Positions 2,117 through 22,289 of a stretch of 32,085 nt of DNA are shown one piece after another; within the stretch, counting starts at the first letter, position 1; every line of letters starts with the position of its first letter. The position numbers and the translations under genes are program-made. The notes beneath the pieces are model-generated. The model made no database searches, was not told the origin of the DNA, and worked only from the letters and a program-made list of their open reading frames with translations. The stretch comes from Fidelibacterota bacterium (GTDB lineage Bacteria; Fidelibacterota; Marinisomatia; Marinisomatales; SCKK01), in contig SCKK01000042.1 of the NCBI GenBank assembly GCA_004124475.1, positions 1 through 32,085 of the forward strand, written 5' to 3'.

Positions 2117-2218
2117 TTGCGAGTTAAAAAATTAGAGTCACCTCATGTGAGTTACAAGTTTAATCCTTGAAAAAAGCTATGGGAAAAACTAACTTCGTGC
2201 CGCTTTGAGCCCGGATGG

Positions 2219-2235
2219 TCCCGATTTAATCGGGA
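2219..2235. repeat. TCCCGAT-type palindromic repeat
   Basis: Perfect dyad TCCCGATT-T-AATCGGGA sitting where the D-loop of a tRNA-Leu copy should be. The same family recurs at 2245-2262, 18342-18357 and inside 23340-23370. Confidence 0.8.
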
Positions 2236-2244
2236 GTAGACGCG

Positions 2245-2262
2245 TCCCGATTAGGATCGGGA
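2245..2262. repeat. TCCCGAT-type palindromic repeat
   Basis: TCCCGAT-TAGG-ATCGGGA, a 7-bp stem with 4-base loop, occupying the position of the anticodon arm in the damaged tRNA-Leu copy. Confidence 0.8.
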
Positions 2263-2333: not shown

Positions 2334-2417
2334 GCCCGGATGGCGGAATAGGTAGACGCGCATGGTTCAGGACCATGTCTCCGAAAGGAGGTGCAGGTTC
2401 GATTCCTGTTCCGGGCA
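2334..2417 (+). tRNA. tRNA-Leu (anticodon CAG)
   Basis: 84-nt class II tRNA. Acceptor stem GCCCGGA/TCCGGGC with discriminator A; anticodon stem CATGG/CCATG with loop TTCAGGA, anticodon CAG at 2368-2370. A long variable arm follows (TCTCCGAAAGGAGG), then a T-arm with TTCGATT. The 3' CCA is not encoded. It is preceded by a damaged copy of its own 5' part. Confidence 0.95.
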
Positions 2418-2744
2418 CTTTTGATATGTTTTAACTCCAGCTTTGAAGTAACACGCGGTAGAATTTTTAACATCTCAGAATATTGATATCCGCAGAACAG
2501 GTATCTTTATGGATTTTTGGAAGATTAAATCTAATAGCGATGTTCTACATATCAACTGAGTTATTATAGGATTTTATAACTGGTTAATTGGTTATTGGTT
2601 ATTAGTGATTGGTGACAAATATTTTTTACTACTGCATTGCTCACCATTCACTACTCACCAGTCTACCAGTAATCAACGATAACATGCGATAAATCAGTCT
2701 ATAATTAGAACAAAGCCAATCTAATCTATTGAACTCTACGGATC
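2418..2744. other. Non-coding stretch after tRNA-Leu(CAG)
   Basis: About 330 bases with no supported gene. The only structure I see is the long imperfect hairpin at 2596-2660, which lies downstream of the DegT gene. Confidence 0.4.
2596..2660. repeat. Imperfect inverted repeat, 20-bp arms
   Basis: Arms 2596-2615 (TGGTTATTAGTGATTGGTGA) and 2641-2660 are complementary at 17 of 20 positions around a 25-base loop. The arms are built from iterated TTAGTGA/TTGGT-like units. It could fold as RNA downstream of the DegT gene, but it has no T-run and is not a standard terminator. Confidence 0.55.
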
Positions 2745-10672: not shown

Positions 10673-11242
10673 TCAGTTGGATGAAGGTGATACAATTGAG
10701 GAACTATTGTCAAGGAGGATGAGAATCTCTTTTTCCAAAGATTTTTCGTCGCCAGGAACGTATCCTGAATGTTTGTAAACAATCTTACCTGACGCATCAA
10801 CAAGTAGTGTATATGGCAATACATTCCCATTCAATCGTCGATAAGTATCCTGGCTGGGGTCCATTGCAACTAAAAATTGGTATCCACGGGATTTAATATA
10901 ACTCCTCACTTTCGAGCGACTACGTTCCGTATCCAGATTGATCATCAATACGTTAAATCCTTTATCAACATACTTGCTTTGAAATTCATCCAGATGCCGC
11001 ATGGCTTTTAAACAAGGTGCACACCATAACGCCCAAAAATCAATTAATATAGGACCATCCTGGAGTAAATTATCGACGGTGGTTTTTTTCCCGTCCATCA
11101 TTCTAATGGATAGATTTGGTAACTGGTTGGTTTGTGAAAATAGAAAGTTACTTATAAGAAATAAAATAAGGAAAACGCTTCCTAATGCTACCCTCGGTGC
11201 CCAATGGGCAAAACCTGAGATTGAATTTAAAATCTTGAACAT
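10673..11242 (-). CDS. TlpA/ResA-like membrane-anchored thioredoxin
   Basis: Thiol-disulfide oxidoreductase, expected in the periplasm. An N-terminal hydrophobic segment (VALGSVFLILFLISNFLFSQ) is a signal anchor or signal peptide. The domain follows with WCAPC in DFWALWCAPCLKAMRHL. FIVAMDP-like and LPYTLLVDASGKIVYKHSGY segments complete the thioredoxin fold. I place the start at ATG 11240-11242 (MFKILN); a GTG seven codons upstream at 11263 would also be in frame. It is the first gene of the redox/barrel unit. A partial, decayed tandem copy lies immediately upstream and is interrupted by an IS3 element. Confidence 0.9.
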   Translation of the reverse strand: MFKILNSISGFAHWAPRVALGSVFLILFLISNFLFSQTNQLPNLSIRMMDGKKTTVDNLLQDGPILIDFWALWCAPCLKAMRHLDEFQSKYVDKGFNVLMINLDTERSRSKVRSYIKSRGYQFLVAMDPSQDTYRRLNGNVLPYTLLVDASGKIVYKHSGYVPGDEKSLEKEILILLDNSSSIVSPSSN

Positions 11243-11559
11243 CTTAGTCTCATTTTCTTTCACTTATTGATTGTATGTAGTTCTTAACTATCATGTCACT
11301 GAGATGTTACTCCAGCTGAGTGTCAGAGTTTCGTCAGATGGCTGACAGTTATTCAGTTTGGTTGATTCTTGCTCTGGAAAGTGTCCGTATATCAACATAC
11401 TTGTTTTGAAATTCATCCAGATGCCGCATGGCTTTTAAACAAGGAGCACACCATAACGCCCAAAAATCAATTAATATAGGACTATCTTGGAGTAACTTAT
11501 CGACGGTGGTTTTTTCCCCGTCCATCATTCGAATGGATAGATTTGGCATTTGGTTGGTC

Positions 11560-11598
11560 TGATGTTCCTACATTTTAGTGGACACCTAAAGAAGTCAT
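11560..11598 (+). repeat. Left terminal inverted repeat of the IS3 element
   Basis: Begins TGATGTTCCTAC and ends AAGAAGTCAT; 28 of 39 positions match the reverse complement of 12850-12888. Confidence 0.9.
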
Positions 11599-11657: not shown

Positions 11658-11963
11658 ATGAGAGAGATAAAAAAACGAAGACAATATACAAAAGAGTTCA
11701 AAATTGAGACTGTGGAATTTTTACTGCGTAGTGAAAAGACAACAGTGGAAGTAGCCCGTGATCTGGGTATTAGAACTGAATTATTATACCGTTGGAAAAA
11801 AGAACATTTGAATGACCAGATAAACTCTTTTCCCGGGACCGGTCATTTGCAGGATCCTGAGGAAGAACGGATCAGGAAACTGGAGCGTGAACTGCGATCG
11901 GTACAGGAAGAGCGTGACATCTTAAAAAAAGTAGTGGCCATTTTCTCAAAAACACCCCAATGA
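11658..11963 (+). CDS. IS3-family transposase OrfA (HTH/leucine zipper)
   Basis: 101-residue DNA-binding subunit. An N-terminal helix-turn-helix of the transposase_8 type (RRQYTKEFKIETVEFLL... VARDLGIRTELLYRWKKE) recognises the IS ends. The C-terminal heptad region (EERIRKLERELRSVQEERDILKK) is the usual dimerisation zipper. The stop TGA overlaps the orfB ATG (ATGA at 11960-11963). A run of seven A bases near the 3' end is the likely frameshift site that would fuse it to OrfB. Confidence 0.95.
   Translation: MREIKKRRQYTKEFKIETVEFLLRSEKTTVEVARDLGIRTELLYRWKKEHLNDQINSFPGTGHLQDPEEERIRKLERELRSVQEERDILKKVVAIFSKTPQ
11924..11931 (+). other. Likely -1 programmed frameshift site (A7G)
   Basis: In the orfA frame the codons TTA AAA AAA place a slippery A-AAA-AAA heptamer at 11924-11930. 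Slipping back one base leads into an open frame (SSGHFLKNTP) that joins directly to OrfB at 11960. IS3 elements commonly make the OrfAB fusion transposase this way. Confidence 0.65.
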
Positions 11964-12853
11964 AGTATGAATTTATCCATACCAGCCGTTCCGAATTTGA
12001 GGTGAAGAAGATGTGCCATGTATTGAATGTCAATAGGAGCGGTTACTATCGATATATTACCGGTACAAAGAATAAGCAATGGGCTGAGAATTTGATACTG
12101 TTAGAAGAAATCAAGGACATTTATAAAGATAGCAAAGGCACCTATGGCAGTCCCCGGATTACTGATTCTTTACATGATTTGGGATATTCCTGCAGCGAAC
12201 CCAGAGTGGCCAGATTGATGAGAACCAATGGAATTAAGGCTAAGACCCAGAAAAAGTATAAGGTAACGACCAACTCCGATCATTCTTACCCCATAGCACC
12301 CAATCTTCTAAATCAGGATTTCTGGACCACAGCAGCTCACCGCATTTGGATGAGCGATATCACCTATATCCGAACATGGCAAGGATGGTTGTATTTGACG
12401 ATCATTTTGGATCTGTATACCCAGAAAGTTGTGGGGTGGTCCATGAGTGACCGGTTGACAGCAAATACGACGACAATCCCGGCATTTATCCAGGCGGCCA
12501 AGAAATATCAGCCTTTACCGGGTTTGATATTTCATTCAGACAGAGGGGTTCAATATGCCTGTGATGATTTTCGTGAATTGCTAAAATTTTTTAAGGTGAT
12601 CCAGAGCATGAGTGGAAAAGGAAACTGTTATGATAATGCTGTGGCAGAGAGCTTTTTCCCTGCCTGACCGGCAGGCAGGCATACGCTGAAAACAGAGTTG
12701 GTTTACCATGAAACGTATCGGACTCGAATGGAAGCTAAAACCAGCTTGTTCGAGTATATAGAGGTATTCTATAATCGGTTTAGAAAACATTCAGCACTGG
12801 GTTACAAATCGCCAGAAGAATATGAACAATCAACATTCAAACAAGCAATATGA
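11960..12853 (+). pseudogene. IS3-family transposase OrfB interrupted by an in-frame palindromic insert
   Basis: DDE integrase-type catalytic subunit. HTH_21 region (KKMCHVLNVNRSGYYRY), first Asp in WMSDITYI, second Asp in IFHSDRGVQY and the Glu in CYDNAVAESFF are all present. Immediately after SFF a palindrome brings TGA at 12665-12667. The same frame then resumes with [12 protein letters not shown] and runs to the proper stop at 12851-12853, preserving the C-terminal [13 protein letters not shown] motif. As written, translation stops after 235 residues and loses about 55 C-terminal residues, so activity is doubtful. Confidence 0.92.
12659..12680. repeat. CCTGCC-type palindromic element inside the transposase
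   Basis: CCTGCCTG (12659-12666) and CAGGCAGG (12672-12679) form a perfect 8-bp stem with a 5-base loop. Compared with the common IS3 motif SFFHTLKTEL, the net gain is 21 bases with the frame kept. Related CCTGCC/GGCAGG palindromes occur at 28824-28860 and 30165-30196. Confidence 0.85.
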
Positions 12854-17506: not shown

Positions 17507-17628
17507 GAAACGAAAATTAAGGAAAGGAAAAGGTAATTAAAATACAATGATTCAAAATTGTGCATTACATGTCGTAAACCAAACATGTGAACCAGACCCG
17601 TTAGGTTGAAATATATATATAAAACACG

Positions 17629-17711
17629 CGGAGGTGGAGGGACTCGAACCCCCAAGTCCGTGAGGACGCCGGTTTTCAAGACCGGTGCATTACCAATTAT
17701 GCTACACCTCC
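17629..17711 (-). tRNA. tRNA-Ser (anticodon UGA)
   Basis: 83 nt. Acceptor GGAGGTG/CACCTCC with discriminator G, the serine identity base. Anticodon stem CCGGT/ACCGG, loop CTTGAAA, anticodon TGA at 17676-17678. The long variable arm (GTCC-TCAC-GGAC) marks class II. CCA is not encoded. The D-arm (GCATAATTGGTAATGC) is of a shape more usual in class I tRNAs. Confidence 0.93.
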
Positions 17712-17733: not shown

Positions 17734-17819
17734 CTCGCTGGTTTTTCCGAAGGATCCTGTCCACAGGACGCTGAGCGTGGACAAGACCAGTGCATTAAAC
17801 TAGACTCTGCTACGCCTCC
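17734..17819 (-). pseudogene. 5' half of a tRNA-Ser(UGA)-like gene with a 36-bp anticodon-loop insert
   Basis: Sense strand: acceptor GGAGGCG; D-arm GCA...TGC; anticodon stem CTGGT; loop bases CTTG; 36-bp insert; AAA; ACCAG; CG. The insert falls between the second and third anticodon bases. The anticodon stem differs from that of the intact gene by a paired C-G to T-A change, so the parent was once a folding tRNA rather than a random copy. Variable arm, T-arm and 3' acceptor are missing. The intact gene begins 108 bases downstream. Confidence 0.8.
17746..17781. repeat. 36-bp palindromic insert in a tRNA anticodon loop
   Basis: Insert with complementary ends (TCC...GGA) and an inner GTCC-TGT-GGAC hairpin. 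Fifteen bases (ACAGGATCCTTCGGA on the minus strand) recur at 23471-23485. Removing exactly 36 bases restores the loop CTTG-AAA. Confidence 0.8.
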
Positions 17820-17824
17820 CAGTC

Positions 17825-17888
17825 CTGCGGAGAGAGAGGGATTCCCCGCCTGACAGACTGACGTCAGTCAGTCGGGCTGGGAACCCTC
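17825..17888 (-). repeat. Direct repeat of the tRNA-Ser(GCU) 3' end, interrupted by a palindrome
   Basis: 17825-17844 plus 17881-17888 are identical, 28/28 bases, to 18142-18169 at the 3' end of tRNA-Ser(GCU). Together the two copies bracket the GIY-YIG pseudogene (253 bp between them), like the ends of a small element integrated into a tRNA 3' end. Confidence 0.88.
17845..17880. repeat. 36-bp palindromic insert in a tRNA T-loop sequence
   Basis: Core GACTGACGTCAGTC (17856-17869) is a perfect 14-bp palindrome, with CCCGCC/GGGCTGG outer arms. It splits TTC/GAA of the T-loop in the duplicated tRNA-Ser(GCU) end with no base lost and no target duplication. It also supplies the last codons and stop of the GIY-YIG frame. 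Confidence 0.85.
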
Positions 17889-18142
17889 CTTCCTTTCCTC
17901 AATCTGTTTATCAATAAATTTCTTCCCAGCAGCAGATTTCAAATAGCGTTCCCTTTTTCTCGCTTCACTCCTTTCACCTACATACTCCATGTAAATAATT
18001 TCAAATGGGCGATAGTTCTTAGTAGCTCTTACTTTTCCAGCATTGTGATTCTTAAGACGGTCTGATGAATTCAGCTCATTCCTTTATATCGAAATATACC
18101 GCGTTGACTTTGAATTACGTAAACGTACCAACCTTTTTTCAC
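17868..18142 (-). pseudogene. GIY-YIG nuclease (UPF0213/COG2827-like), frameshifted
   Basis: GTG at 18140-18142, two bases after the tRNA-Ser(GCU) discriminator, opens KKGWYVYVIQSQRGIFRYKGMS and then hits TGA at 18071-18073. After a frame change near 18069-18075 the frame continues SSDRLKNHNAGKVRATKNYR, PFEIIYMEY and EARKRERYLKSAAGKKFID. This is the catalytic Arg/Glu half of a small GIY-YIG nuclease. The first motif is WYVYV, and the YIG motif reads YKG. Stop TGA 17868-17870 is contributed by the inserted palindrome. The family cuts DNA. Position between two copies of a tRNA end suggests it was cargo or driver of a mini-element. It is now probably dead. Confidence 0.85.
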
Positions 18143-18144
18143 TG

Positions 18145-18235
18145 CGGAGAGAGAGGGATTCGAACCCTCGAAGGAGCTTTTAACCCCTTACTCGCTTAGC
18201 AGGCGAGCGCCTTCAGCCAGCTCGGCCACCTCTCC
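18145..18235 (-). tRNA. tRNA-Ser (anticodon GCU)
   Basis: 91 nt, class II. Acceptor GGAGAGG/TCTCTCC (one G-U pair), discriminator G, D-arm GCCGAGCTGGCTGAAGGC. Anticodon stem CTCGC/GCGAG with loop CTGCTAA, anticodon GCT. Long variable arm; T-arm GAGGG-TTCGAAT-CCCTC. CCA is not encoded. The GIY-YIG frame begins two bases beyond its 3' end. Confidence 0.95.
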
Positions 18236-18320
18236 ATCGTGCAACTATTCCGAAAAAGCTCTTCCTAAAACTGCTATGAAAAAACCTCGTTCCGCATTTT
18301 CACTAAAAAACCGAATAGCA

Positions 18321-18336
18321 TCCGTCGGCTGACGGA
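18321..18336. repeat. TCCGT-type palindrome
   Basis: TCCGTC-GGCT-GACGGA, 6-bp stem; relative of the perfect palindrome TCCGTTAGCTAACGGA at 25009-25024. Confidence 0.7.
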
Positions 18337-18341
18337 TTCAG

Positions 18342-18357
18342 TCCCGATCTATTGGGA
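18342..18357. repeat. TCCCGAT-type palindromic repeat
   Basis: TCCCGATCTATTGGGA, an imperfect member of the family at 2219-2262, again at a tRNA D-loop position. Confidence 0.7.
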
Positions 18358-18458
18358 CCATCTCTCCATCTAACTTTTATCCTGAAAAATGTGTGGAAAT
18401 TTATCCCGACTCCTATTTGTTTTCAAAGAGAAAGTGTATTAAACTTTAGTATCACACT

Positions 18459-20298: not shown

Positions 20299-20673
20299 TC
20301 ATACCTTTGAATTCAATTCATTTTTACGGAAAATATCTTTCGACACCACCAAAAATCCACCTACAATTAATCCCGCTGAATCAGCAAACCAATCAGCTAC
20401 ACTGGATATCCTTCGAGGAATAAAATATTGAAACAACTCATCAAATATTCCAAACACCATCCCGGCAATAATCACCATCGTAACGAATTTTAACTCCTTT
20501 CTATCCAGGGATTGGACCAAAAGCCATCCTAACCCCGCATACTCTAAAAAATGGATTAATTTGTCCCATCCCAGGAATGGAAGTTTGGGAATGCTAGTAC
20601 CGGGAATGGATGAAAGAATTAGAATTAAGGTACAGTAAGCAACAAGAAGGATTCGATATTTAGTTACATTCAT
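20299..20673 (-). CDS. VanZ-like integral membrane protein
   Basis: 124 residues with about four hydrophobic segments (YCTLILILSS; LIHFLEYAGLGWLL; VTMVIIAGMVFGIFDE; SAGLIVGGFLVV). The VanZ signature is present: DKLIHFLEYAGLG, then FGIFDELFQYFIPRRISSVADWFADSAG with conserved acidic and aromatic positions. The molecular role of VanZ proteins is not settled; the founding member gives low-level teicoplanin resistance. The ATG overlaps the end of nnr by 14 bases and murA follows after 7, so it belongs to this envelope-related operon. Confidence 0.85.
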   Translation of the reverse strand: MNVTKYRILLVAYCTLILILSSIPGTSIPKLPFLGWDKLIHFLEYAGLGWLLVQSLDRKELKFVTMVIIAGMVFGIFDELFQYFIPRRISSVADWFADSAGLIVGGFLVVSKDIFRKNELNSKV

Positions 20674-22195
20674 ATTGATAAATCATATTCGGCAACACAT
20701 CTAAAAGGTCACTGGCAATCAACCCACGGTATCCGCGTTTTTCCAATAAAATATCTGCAGCTTTTCCATGAATGTAGACAGCAACTTCTGCCGCCGCTTC
20801 TAAAGGTACACCCTGGGCGGTAATTCCGGCAAGTATTCCTGTTAATACATCACCACTTCCTCCTGTAGCCAATCCTTGATGTCCTGTGGTAGAGACCACA
20901 ATCTGACCCTCAAAGCCGATCAGTGTAGGAGCACCTTTTAAAACGACCACACCGCCAATCATTCGGGATAGGTCTTTTAAAAATTCAAACGGACTTTCAA
21001 TGATCTTTTGCTTATTGATGTCAGTCAGCATTGCAGCTTCGCCATAATGAGGGGTTATAATAAACCTGCCTTCTAATTCTTGAAATAAATCCAAATTCCC
21101 ATGAAAAACTCTTAAAGCATCTGCGTCAATGATCATCGCTTTCGTAAATCTTTTAATAATCTTCCGAGCAAATTGAAGAGTTTCCTCATCGGTTCCCAGT
21201 CCAGGTCCTATGGCGAGCACATCACACCAATCAAGCTTTGTCTGTGCGTATTCAGCAGCTTTTCTACTGAAACGTCCACTTCCCGTATCAGGCAGTGGAT
21301 CTGTGATAACTTCGGTTAATTTTGTTTCATAAATGGGATTTAATGTTTCCGGGATACCCGCAATCACAAGACCGGCTCCTGCTCGTAATGCTGCTTCACA
21401 AGATAAACATGCAGCTCCTGTAAATCCACGAGAACCACCTAAAAAATATACCTTACCCTGTCTATGTTTATAGGTATCAGATGGAGGCTTTTGTAAATAG
21501 GTTTTTACAATGGATTCATTGGCTAATCTTTTATTCGATTCCACAATTTCAAATGATTTCTCCGGGTAGCCGATGTCTGCGACTTCTACAGTTCCAGCAT
21601 ATTCAACACCTGGATTAATAACAAGTCCCAGTTTTAAAAACCCCATAGTTACTGTGGTATCAGCTTTTATCCCAACGCCCAACACCTGACCATTATCAGA
21701 ATTAATTCCAGAGGGAATATCGATAGATAGTACAGGTTTTTTCGATTCATTCACGCTTTTAATCCATTCTGCTACATTTGCTCTTACCTTCCCATGAATT
21801 CCCGTTCCCAGAAGCCCATCGATCAATAAATCATATTCTTGGAAATCTATATTTTTCGGTGTGACATTATAATGACATGAGAGGCCTGCATTTATACATC
21901 TGTTATGGAATATTTTAGCATCACCCGTAATGTCTTCCGCGCTCACAATGGACAGGAGAGAAACTTTAACCCCAAATTTATTTATGTTAATTGCAGCAGC
22001 ATATCCATCTCCTCCATTGTTCCCTTTTCCGCAAATAATTGCCACTTTTTTCCCACCACTTACAAGCAACATTTTCTTTGCCTGATGAGCAACCGCCAGT
22101 CCAGCCGCACCCATCAAATTCTCTCCTGGGATACCGAGATCAGAAATGGCATATCCATCTATTTGCCTGGTTTCTTTTGATGAGAATATTTTCAC
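20660..22195 (-). CDS. nnr: Bifunctional NAD(P)HX epimerase / ADP-dependent dehydratase
   Basis: Repairs hydrated NAD(P)H. The N-terminal YjeF epimerase domain (GAAGLAVAHQA, ICGKGNNGGDGYAAA, DGLLGTGIHGKV) is followed by the ribokinase-like dehydratase (YFLGGSRGFTGAACLS, GPGLGTDEET, and GLATGGSGDVLTGILAG near the end). I place the start at GTG 22193-22195 (VKIFSSKETRQID), where family similarity begins, giving 511 residues. An in-frame ATG at 22276 would add 27 residues encoded largely by a palindromic repeat (22231-22259). No ribosome-binding site clearly favours either start. It follows acpS and overlaps vanZ by 14 bases. Confidence 0.93.
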   Translation of the reverse strand: MKIFSSKETRQIDGYAISDLGIPGENLMGAAGLAVAHQAKKMLLVSGGKKVAIICGKGNNGGDGYAAAININKFGVKVSLLSIVSAEDITGDAKIFHNRCINAGLSCHYNVTPKNIDFQEYDLLIDGLLGTGIHGKVRANVAEWIKSVNESKKPVLSIDIPSGINSDNGQVLGVGIKADTTVTMGFLKLGLVINPGVEYAGTVEVADIGYPEKSFEIVESNKRLANESIVKTYLQKPPSDTYKHRQGKVYFLGGSRGFTGAACLSCEAALRAGAGLVIAGIPETLNPIYETKLTEVITDPLPDTGSGRFSRKAAEYAQTKLDWCDVLAIGPGLGTDEETLQFARKIIKRFTKAMIIDADALRVFHGNLDLFQELEGRFIITPHYGEAAMLTDINKQKIIESPFEFLKDLSRMIGGVVVLKGAPTLIGFEGQIVVSTTGHQGLATGGSGDVLTGILAGITAQGVPLEAAAEVAVYIHGKAADILLEKRGYRGLIASDLLDVLPNMIYQYECN

Positions 22196-22230
22196 CTGAA
22201 GATAGTTTTGAGCATGGAGAATTGCCAGCT

Positions 22231-22259
22231 CCGCCTGACCATGTGCTCGGTCGGGCAGG
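22231..22259. repeat. CCTGCC-type imperfect palindrome at the nnr start
   Basis: CCGCCTGACC and GGTCGGGCAGG are complementary apart from one indel and one mismatch around an 8-base loop. It lies between the acpS stop and the first conserved residue of nnr and is open in the nnr frame. Confidence 0.6.
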
Positions 22260-22289
22260 TTTGTCCCAATAGCCATTGGGATGAATGTT

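Follow-up and report, generated by a model that had tools for sequence, protein, structure and literature searches.

A 36-bp palindromic sequence that interrupts a redundant tRNA-Ser(GCU) end within its T-loop is probably, at odds we put at roughly 0.7, a copy of a putative ultra-short, non-autonomous palindromic mobile element that inserted there. Since the same foreign arms were found at unrelated places and clean empty sites were seen, a mobile element was favoured over local growth of a hairpin. The insertion lies in a stretch of 32,085 nucleotides, which was analysed at its whole length and is called the window.

The insertion and its surroundings

The features of the window that bear on the insertion are given below by position.

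2209-2262, plus strand: tRNA-Leu(CAG) pseudo-5' end with TCCCGA..TCGGGA palindromes (2219-2235 in the D-loop, 2245-2262 in the anticodon arm)
2334-2418, plus strand: intact tRNA-Leu(CAG), adjoining the 2209-2262 remnant (ARAGORN)
17628-17711, minus strand: intact tRNA-Ser(UGA) (ARAGORN, Rfam)
17738-17819, minus strand: pseudo-tRNA-Ser 5' half, a relative of tRNA-Ser(UGA) (GGAGGCGTAGCAGAGTC...CTGGTCTTG/.../AAAACCAG), seen in the sequence and present also in the same-genus genome G001
17746-17781, no strand: second insertion of 36 bp, able to form a hairpin, in the pseudo-tRNA-Ser anticodon loop (TCTTG/AAAACC)
17825-17844, minus strand: displaced tRNA-Ser(GCU) 3' end (acceptor strand, 3' half of T-stem and T-loop, and the following CAG), 100% identical to 18142-18161
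17845-17880, no strand: 36-bp palindromic element of the GCCTGAC..GTCGGGC family, in the T-loop at TTC/GAA
17868-18140, minus strand: frameshifted GIY-YIG nuclease pseudogene (PF01541, E=8e-7)
17881-17888, minus strand: displaced tRNA-Ser(GCU) T-arm 5' half (GAGGGTTC), identical to 18162-18169
18144-18235, minus strand: intact tRNA-Ser(GCU) (ARAGORN, Rfam)
18342-18357, no strand: TCCCGATCTATTGGGA palindrome with one G-T mismatch, in the D-arm of the displaced tRNA-Ser(GCU) 5' end
18358-18367, minus strand: displaced 5' end of tRNA-Ser(GCU), GGAGAGATGG (repeat; comparison with G001)
22233-22256, no strand: further copy of the GCCTGAC..GTCGGGC family (pattern search)

The duplicated part of tRNA-Ser(GCU) comprised 28 nt of T-arm and 3' acceptor strand, with 20 nt left of the insert (17825-17844 = 18142-18161) and 8 nt right of it (17881-17888 = 18162-18169). 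When the 36 bp at 17845-17880 (CCCGCCTGACAGACTGACGTCAGTCAGTCGGGCTGG) were cut out, the sequence ...GGGATTC/GAACCCTC... was restored, and a single placement of the cut was possible. The preliminary description had claimed a clean insertion at TTC/GAA with neither deletion nor target duplication, and this was confirmed. It had also spoken of a clean before/after pair; an intact copy is indeed nearby, at a spacing of 317, but the pair consists of an intact tRNA and a displaced fragment, separated by DNA of GIY-YIG origin. Similarly, the insert had been called an exact palindrome, which held for its central 14 bp (GACTGACGTCAGTC, a perfect palindrome) but not for the 36-mer as a whole, which is imperfect at 15/18 pairs. 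This degree of palindromicity was reached by one of the 32,049 36-nt stretches of the window, namely 17845-17880. The insert and the surrounding T-arm gave a single 53-nt hairpin of -34 to -37.5 kcal/mol. An RNA-family search at the site returned the two tRNAs and otherwise sub-threshold matches, mainly microRNA-like hairpins and one plastid element.

The GIY-YIG pseudogene starts directly behind the intact tRNA-Ser(GCU), between it and the displaced end, and its stop codon TGA falls within the 36-bp palindrome. The tRNA-Ser locus of G001 is 93% identical to that of the window. Its GIY-YIG frame is intact (ortholog, PF01541 E=3.8e-14), with a stop codon likewise supplied by the palindrome, and a second GIY-YIG ORF lies behind. 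At the identical T-loop bond, G001 carries an insert of 28 bp (CCCGCCTGACCGACGTCAGTCGGGCTGG) instead of 36 bp, the difference being the longer central hairpin of the latter (tip of 14 versus 6 nt). A length of 36 bp is therefore no fixed unit, and the two lengths at one locus indicated that the hairpin tip changes over time.

The second insertion (17746-17781) is also clean, and its hairpin core was found again in variant form at three other loci (L009, L010, L011). The region 18226-18367 is a species-specific duplication of the tRNA-Ser(GCU) 5' end carrying the TCCCAATAGATCGGGA palindrome; no palindrome was present in G001 at the equivalent of 18342-18357, where tRNA-Ser(GCU) is uninterrupted. 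The family copy at 22233-22256 lies near the beginning of a long ORF on the minus strand (20660-22276), which by eye resembles an NAD(P)HX epimerase/dehydratase. Elsewhere in the window, a thioredoxin-like gene contains a 172-nt direct repeat (94%; 10963-11134 and 11390-11561) that adjoins an IS3-like transposase pair (11658-12667), gene and transposases being named by eye.

Relatives of the insert and palindromes in tRNA arms

A search of the genome for other copies of the 36-mer had been suggested, and the exact sequence occurred once, with no further copy even when 3 mismatches were allowed, but shorter relatives were found. Their base form is about 24-28 bp long, CCCGCCTGAC-n-GTCGGGCAGG, in both orientations. 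The pattern GCCTGACN{2,22}GTCRGGC matched 15 times in the source genome and 26 times in G001, with 0 and 1 matches for the reversed-pattern control; since fully palindromic copies were tallied on both strands, these matches correspond to about 14 and about 24 places, respectively. With so many copies, the alternative of a one-off duplication was set aside.

The idea of a mobile repeat gained support from relatives at the same T-loop bond of other tRNA ends. In the source genome, 28-bp inserts were found in the displaced ends of tRNA-Glu (GGTTC[CCCGCCTGACCGACGTCAGTCGAGCAGG]GATTCCC) and tRNA-Gln (GGTTC[CCCGCCTGACCGGAATCAGTCGGGCAGG]AAATCCC), and in tRNA-Gln an inner hairpin was replaced on an outer stem that was kept. 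In G195, a genome from another family of the same phylum, a 35-bp version was found in a tRNA-Pro(GGG) 3'-end copy that follows the intact gene after about ten bases (copy, GGGTTC[CCAGCCCGACTGACAGACGTAGTCGGTCAGGCAGG]AAATCTCGCCGCTCCGAC; intact gene, GAGTTCAAATCTCGCCGCTCCGAC). The bond after TTC was common to the inserts in tRNA-Ser, -Gln, -Glu, and -Pro ends, and TTC precedes many family copies. The proposed comparison of flanks with an uninserted paralog could be made in a protein gene. A Y1 transposase gene on contig C63 reads ACCTT[CCCGCCTGACCGCCGCAGTCGGGCAGG]CTGAT where its uninterrupted paralog on C44 reads ACCTTCTGAT, a clean in-frame insertion of 27 bp without duplication or loss. Target-site duplications were seen at none of the Ser, Gln, Glu, Pro, and Y1 sites. 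The same pair of genes (L077 1441-1990 and L075) differs by a second in-frame palindrome change, from 7 nt to TCCCGACTCGTCGGGA. A longer composite repeat, tatggagaaattcccc-GCCTGACCATGTGCTCAGTCGGGC-aggcctgcctg..., was dispersed in the source genome and G001 (L178, L179, L182, L184, L186, L204).

A second family, TCCCGA..TCGGGA, was found to swap out D-, anticodon-, or T-loop segments of tandem tRNA remnants in the source genome and about 25 others, mostly by replacing 5-8 loop bases or the entire anticodon-arm hairpin rather than by clean insertion. About eleven 43-bp tandem units at one locus of the source genome (L051, C44:99851-100297) are 5' pieces of tRNA-Lys(CTT) with the D-loop replaced by the palindrome, whose inner bases differ slightly in many units. 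Several units beside tRNA-Lys(TTT) of the same genome have the T-loop replaced. In tRNA-Lys and tRNA-Phe remnants, the T-loop that was replaced recurs within the palindrome as a direct or inverted copy. Pseudo-tRNA-Gly copies at L158 and L159 have all three arms swapped and the acceptor strands kept, and the 3' side of a tRNA-Arg(TCT) copy in the source genome is not a clean insertion.

The density of G+C-rich palindromes was 1.38 per kb at up to 300 bp from tRNA genes versus 0.25 per kb beyond 1.5 kb (about 5-fold), and that of CCCGA..TCGGG was 1.12 versus 0.083 per kb over the same distances, where the background is a sample of about 290 kb and tandem copies are among the palindromes counted. 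Each palindrome was then cut out and its flanks were aligned to the neighbouring tRNA, with a score of at least 14 defining a split tRNA copy. Such copies were obtained for 78 of the 105 near-tRNA palindromes with any split alignment, compared to 1.9% of random positions, a few of the 78 being weak or equal to intact neighbouring tRNAs (e.g. L048 and one row of L057). Of these splits, 41 hit the D arm, 20 the anticodon arm, 16 the T arm, and one the 3' acceptor strand, with none in the 5' acceptor strand. Because the 28 contigs from other genomes were retrieved with a D-loop signature, the number of D-arm hits among them is subject to a bias that does not affect the counts for the other two arms. 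That D-loop signature, GTAGCTTCCCGA..TCGGGA..AGAGC, was present on 28 contigs of the GTDB collection, two of them from G001, versus a chance expectation of about 0.6 by our own estimate. Nearly all belong to Bacteroidota or Neomarinimicrobiota and one to Thermodesulfovibrionia; a cultured bacterium, Marinilabilia rubra, is among the carriers. Within the phylum, the exact pattern occurred in merely 6/244 genomes (reversed control, 0). Outside tRNAs, 4/61 TCCCGA..TCGGGA palindromes had a flanking stem of at least 6 bp, weak evidence that does not establish a general hairpin-tip rule.

Origin of the palindrome

GIY-YIG ORFs were repeatedly found beside tRNAs. Four of the eight GIY-YIG loci of the source genome adjoin tRNAs (P about 5e-7 to 6e-6), and a GIY-YIG ORF lies behind a tRNA at 6/28 D-loop-signature loci. 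At tRNA-Ser and tRNA-Glu, the tRNA end that holds the palindrome lies past the GIY-YIG ORF; at tRNA-Gln of the source genome and tRNA-Pro of G195, no GIY-YIG ORF was found between the copies and the insertion is there nonetheless. Tandem GIY-YIG ORFs on contig C72 accompany a different palindrome. At the tRNA-Glu locus (L097, L084), a unit of about 41 bp, ctacgcttcgctacgattggcaagccagtagatgttttcat, lies between tRNA-Glu and the GIY-YIG ORF, and the source genome has two copies fewer than G001.

We propose that a small GIY-YIG unit directly behind the tRNA would have shifted the former T-arm and acceptor strand away from the tRNA, which itself remained complete in front of the unit; this displacement, of which the GIY-YIG unit is the presumed cause, would explain the redundant tRNA-Ser(GCU) end. 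The element, which may move as a single-stranded hairpin, would have inserted between TTC and GAA of the redundant T-loop. The arms of tRNA genes (GGTTC T-loops, D- and anticodon loops) appear to be preferred landing or exchange sites, and the T-loop preference could be a plain sequence preference for TTC. Selection would remove the copies in functional tRNAs and leave those in spare copies, and spare tRNA pieces left by GIY-YIG insertion or tandem duplication would let elements survive. Any mover would be expected to look enriched in remnants, since insertions in working tRNAs are hidden by selection; the part beyond what selection alone explains is the constant positions within the arms. The changes of tips in place (6 versus 14 nt in tRNA-Ser; the inner hairpin in tRNA-Gln) hint at an activity on hairpin tips. 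A more specific scheme, which we regard as doubtful, is that mobile hairpins exchange preferentially with the arms of tRNA genes: a hairpin-cutting activity, perhaps the small GIY-YIG nuclease found repeatedly behind tRNAs in Bacteroidota and Neomarinimicrobiota, would open the loops of tRNA-gene hairpins once extruded, and palindromes would be pasted or swapped in, leaving arrays of tRNA remnants with replaced D, anticodon, and T loops.

It is unlikely that the palindrome was made in place, by template switching or quasi-palindrome correction that extended the tip of the T-arm hairpin with nothing moving in. TTCGAA is itself palindromic, the insert prolongs the T-arm into one long hairpin, and the differing tips of the sister genomes, the exchanged tRNA-Gln hairpin on a kept outer stem, and the T-loop copies inside the palindromes of tRNA-Lys and -Phe remnants all agree with such an origin. 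However, the same consensus arms are found at about 14 places of the genome in both orientations, one of them a protein gene whose paralog is a clean empty site. Local template switching cannot repeatedly supply identical foreign arms, and the case for growth in place was weakened by this Y1 paralog pair. The absence of a GIY-YIG ORF from the tRNA-Gln, G195 tRNA-Pro, and Y1-gene copies, and the different palindrome that goes with the tandem ORFs of C72, made it quite improbable that the palindrome is the built-in end of a GIY-YIG unit, a homing-type element with palindrome plus T-arm as its right end, even though the palindrome lies beyond the ORF at both Ser and Glu, supplies the stop codon in G001, and GIY-YIG ORFs directly follow tRNAs in other genomes also.

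Mobilisation as REP/REPIN-type repeats by a Y1 (RAYT/IS200-like) transposase was considered highly unlikely. The hairpin form, the size of 20-40 bp, the absence of target duplication, and seven Y1 matches in the genome would fit, but the element ends in CCC..AGG, without a GTAG or CGTC tag, and the Y1 genes are flanked by other palindromes (CAACCC..GGGTTG, ACCCAC..GTGGGT, and AGTCCGC..GCGGACT). No GCCTGAC..GTCGGGC palindrome flanks any of the seven Y1 loci, and the sole one seen there is inside a Y1 gene. Selection of the hairpins for a function, in which they would disable or insulate pseudo-tRNA pieces within a tRNA transcript or stop transcription, is hardly credible: it would suit the pseudo-tRNA-Gly with three swapped arms and kept acceptor strands and the arrays next to tRNA-Lys, which reach about 11 units, but the same palindromes also occur within a protein gene and at sites distant from tRNAs, and the shared sequence is left unexplained. 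Two marks of an ultra-short palindromic mobile element were found, namely dispersed copies that share their arms and cleanly bounded presence or absence at homologous sites.

Comparison with known systems

The lack of a target-site duplication set the element apart from a MITE of a DDE transposon. Rickettsia-type palindromic elements (RPE), which are about 100-150 bp long, share with it the in-frame insertion in a protein gene, here a single case (27 bp in the C63 Y1 gene); at 27-36 bp, the present elements do not belong to them by size. The small dispersed repeats of cyanobacteria, associated with Elhai et al. in 2008, are reportedly about 20-27 bp long, mobile, and without target duplication, and we know of no link between them and tRNA loops. 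Free-standing GIY-YIG (PF01541) nucleases have the same catalytic domain as the ORF between the two tRNA ends; the copy in the window, in contrast, is a pseudogene of a predicted nuclease, and the unit is placed behind tRNAs.

REP/REPIN sequences with RAYT are likewise non-autonomous bacterial palindromes of 20-40 bp (PMC3116915, PMC3733652), some REP dimers are placed within other palindromes (PMC3116915, PMC3733652), and a GTAG or CGTC tag marks most REPs (PMC3733652). The present elements have neither this tag at the hairpin base nor cognate Y1 flanks, which argued against membership, and they land in tRNA loops. Mitochondrial GC clusters and repetitive hairpin-forming elements are similar as short mobile hairpins with presence or absence between close genomes, but GC42 has a putative AG target duplication (PMC4478555, PMC2800124) and the present elements have none. 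In the available part of the account by Smith and Lee (2009, PMC2670323), the short palindromic repeats of Volvox mitochondria and plastid are hairpins of 10-100 nt, viewed as selfish DNA, with nested insertions and a shared short core (in the plastid, TCCCCTTTAGGGA), and intron endonucleases were considered as helpers. They differ in being organellar and in expanding introns and intergenic DNA, and that part does not describe targeting of tRNA arms. Neither palindromes in the tRNA loops of bacteria nor GIY-YIG units placed behind tRNAs were found described in the open literature, which proves little given that subscription papers were outside its scope.

Target choice and the mover are mostly open questions for ultra-short palindromic mobile DNA. 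Intact tRNA genes adjoin remnants with palindrome-exchanged loops at constant positions, in sister genomes and in two phyla, and these many natural before/after pairs of known secondary structure make the idea of a hairpin target testable. For annotators, tRNA-like fragments and small GIY-YIG ORFs beside tRNAs belong to one mobile-DNA neighbourhood. Ultra-short palindromic mobile DNA as such is already known; its link here to tRNA arms and GIY-YIG units is unusual.
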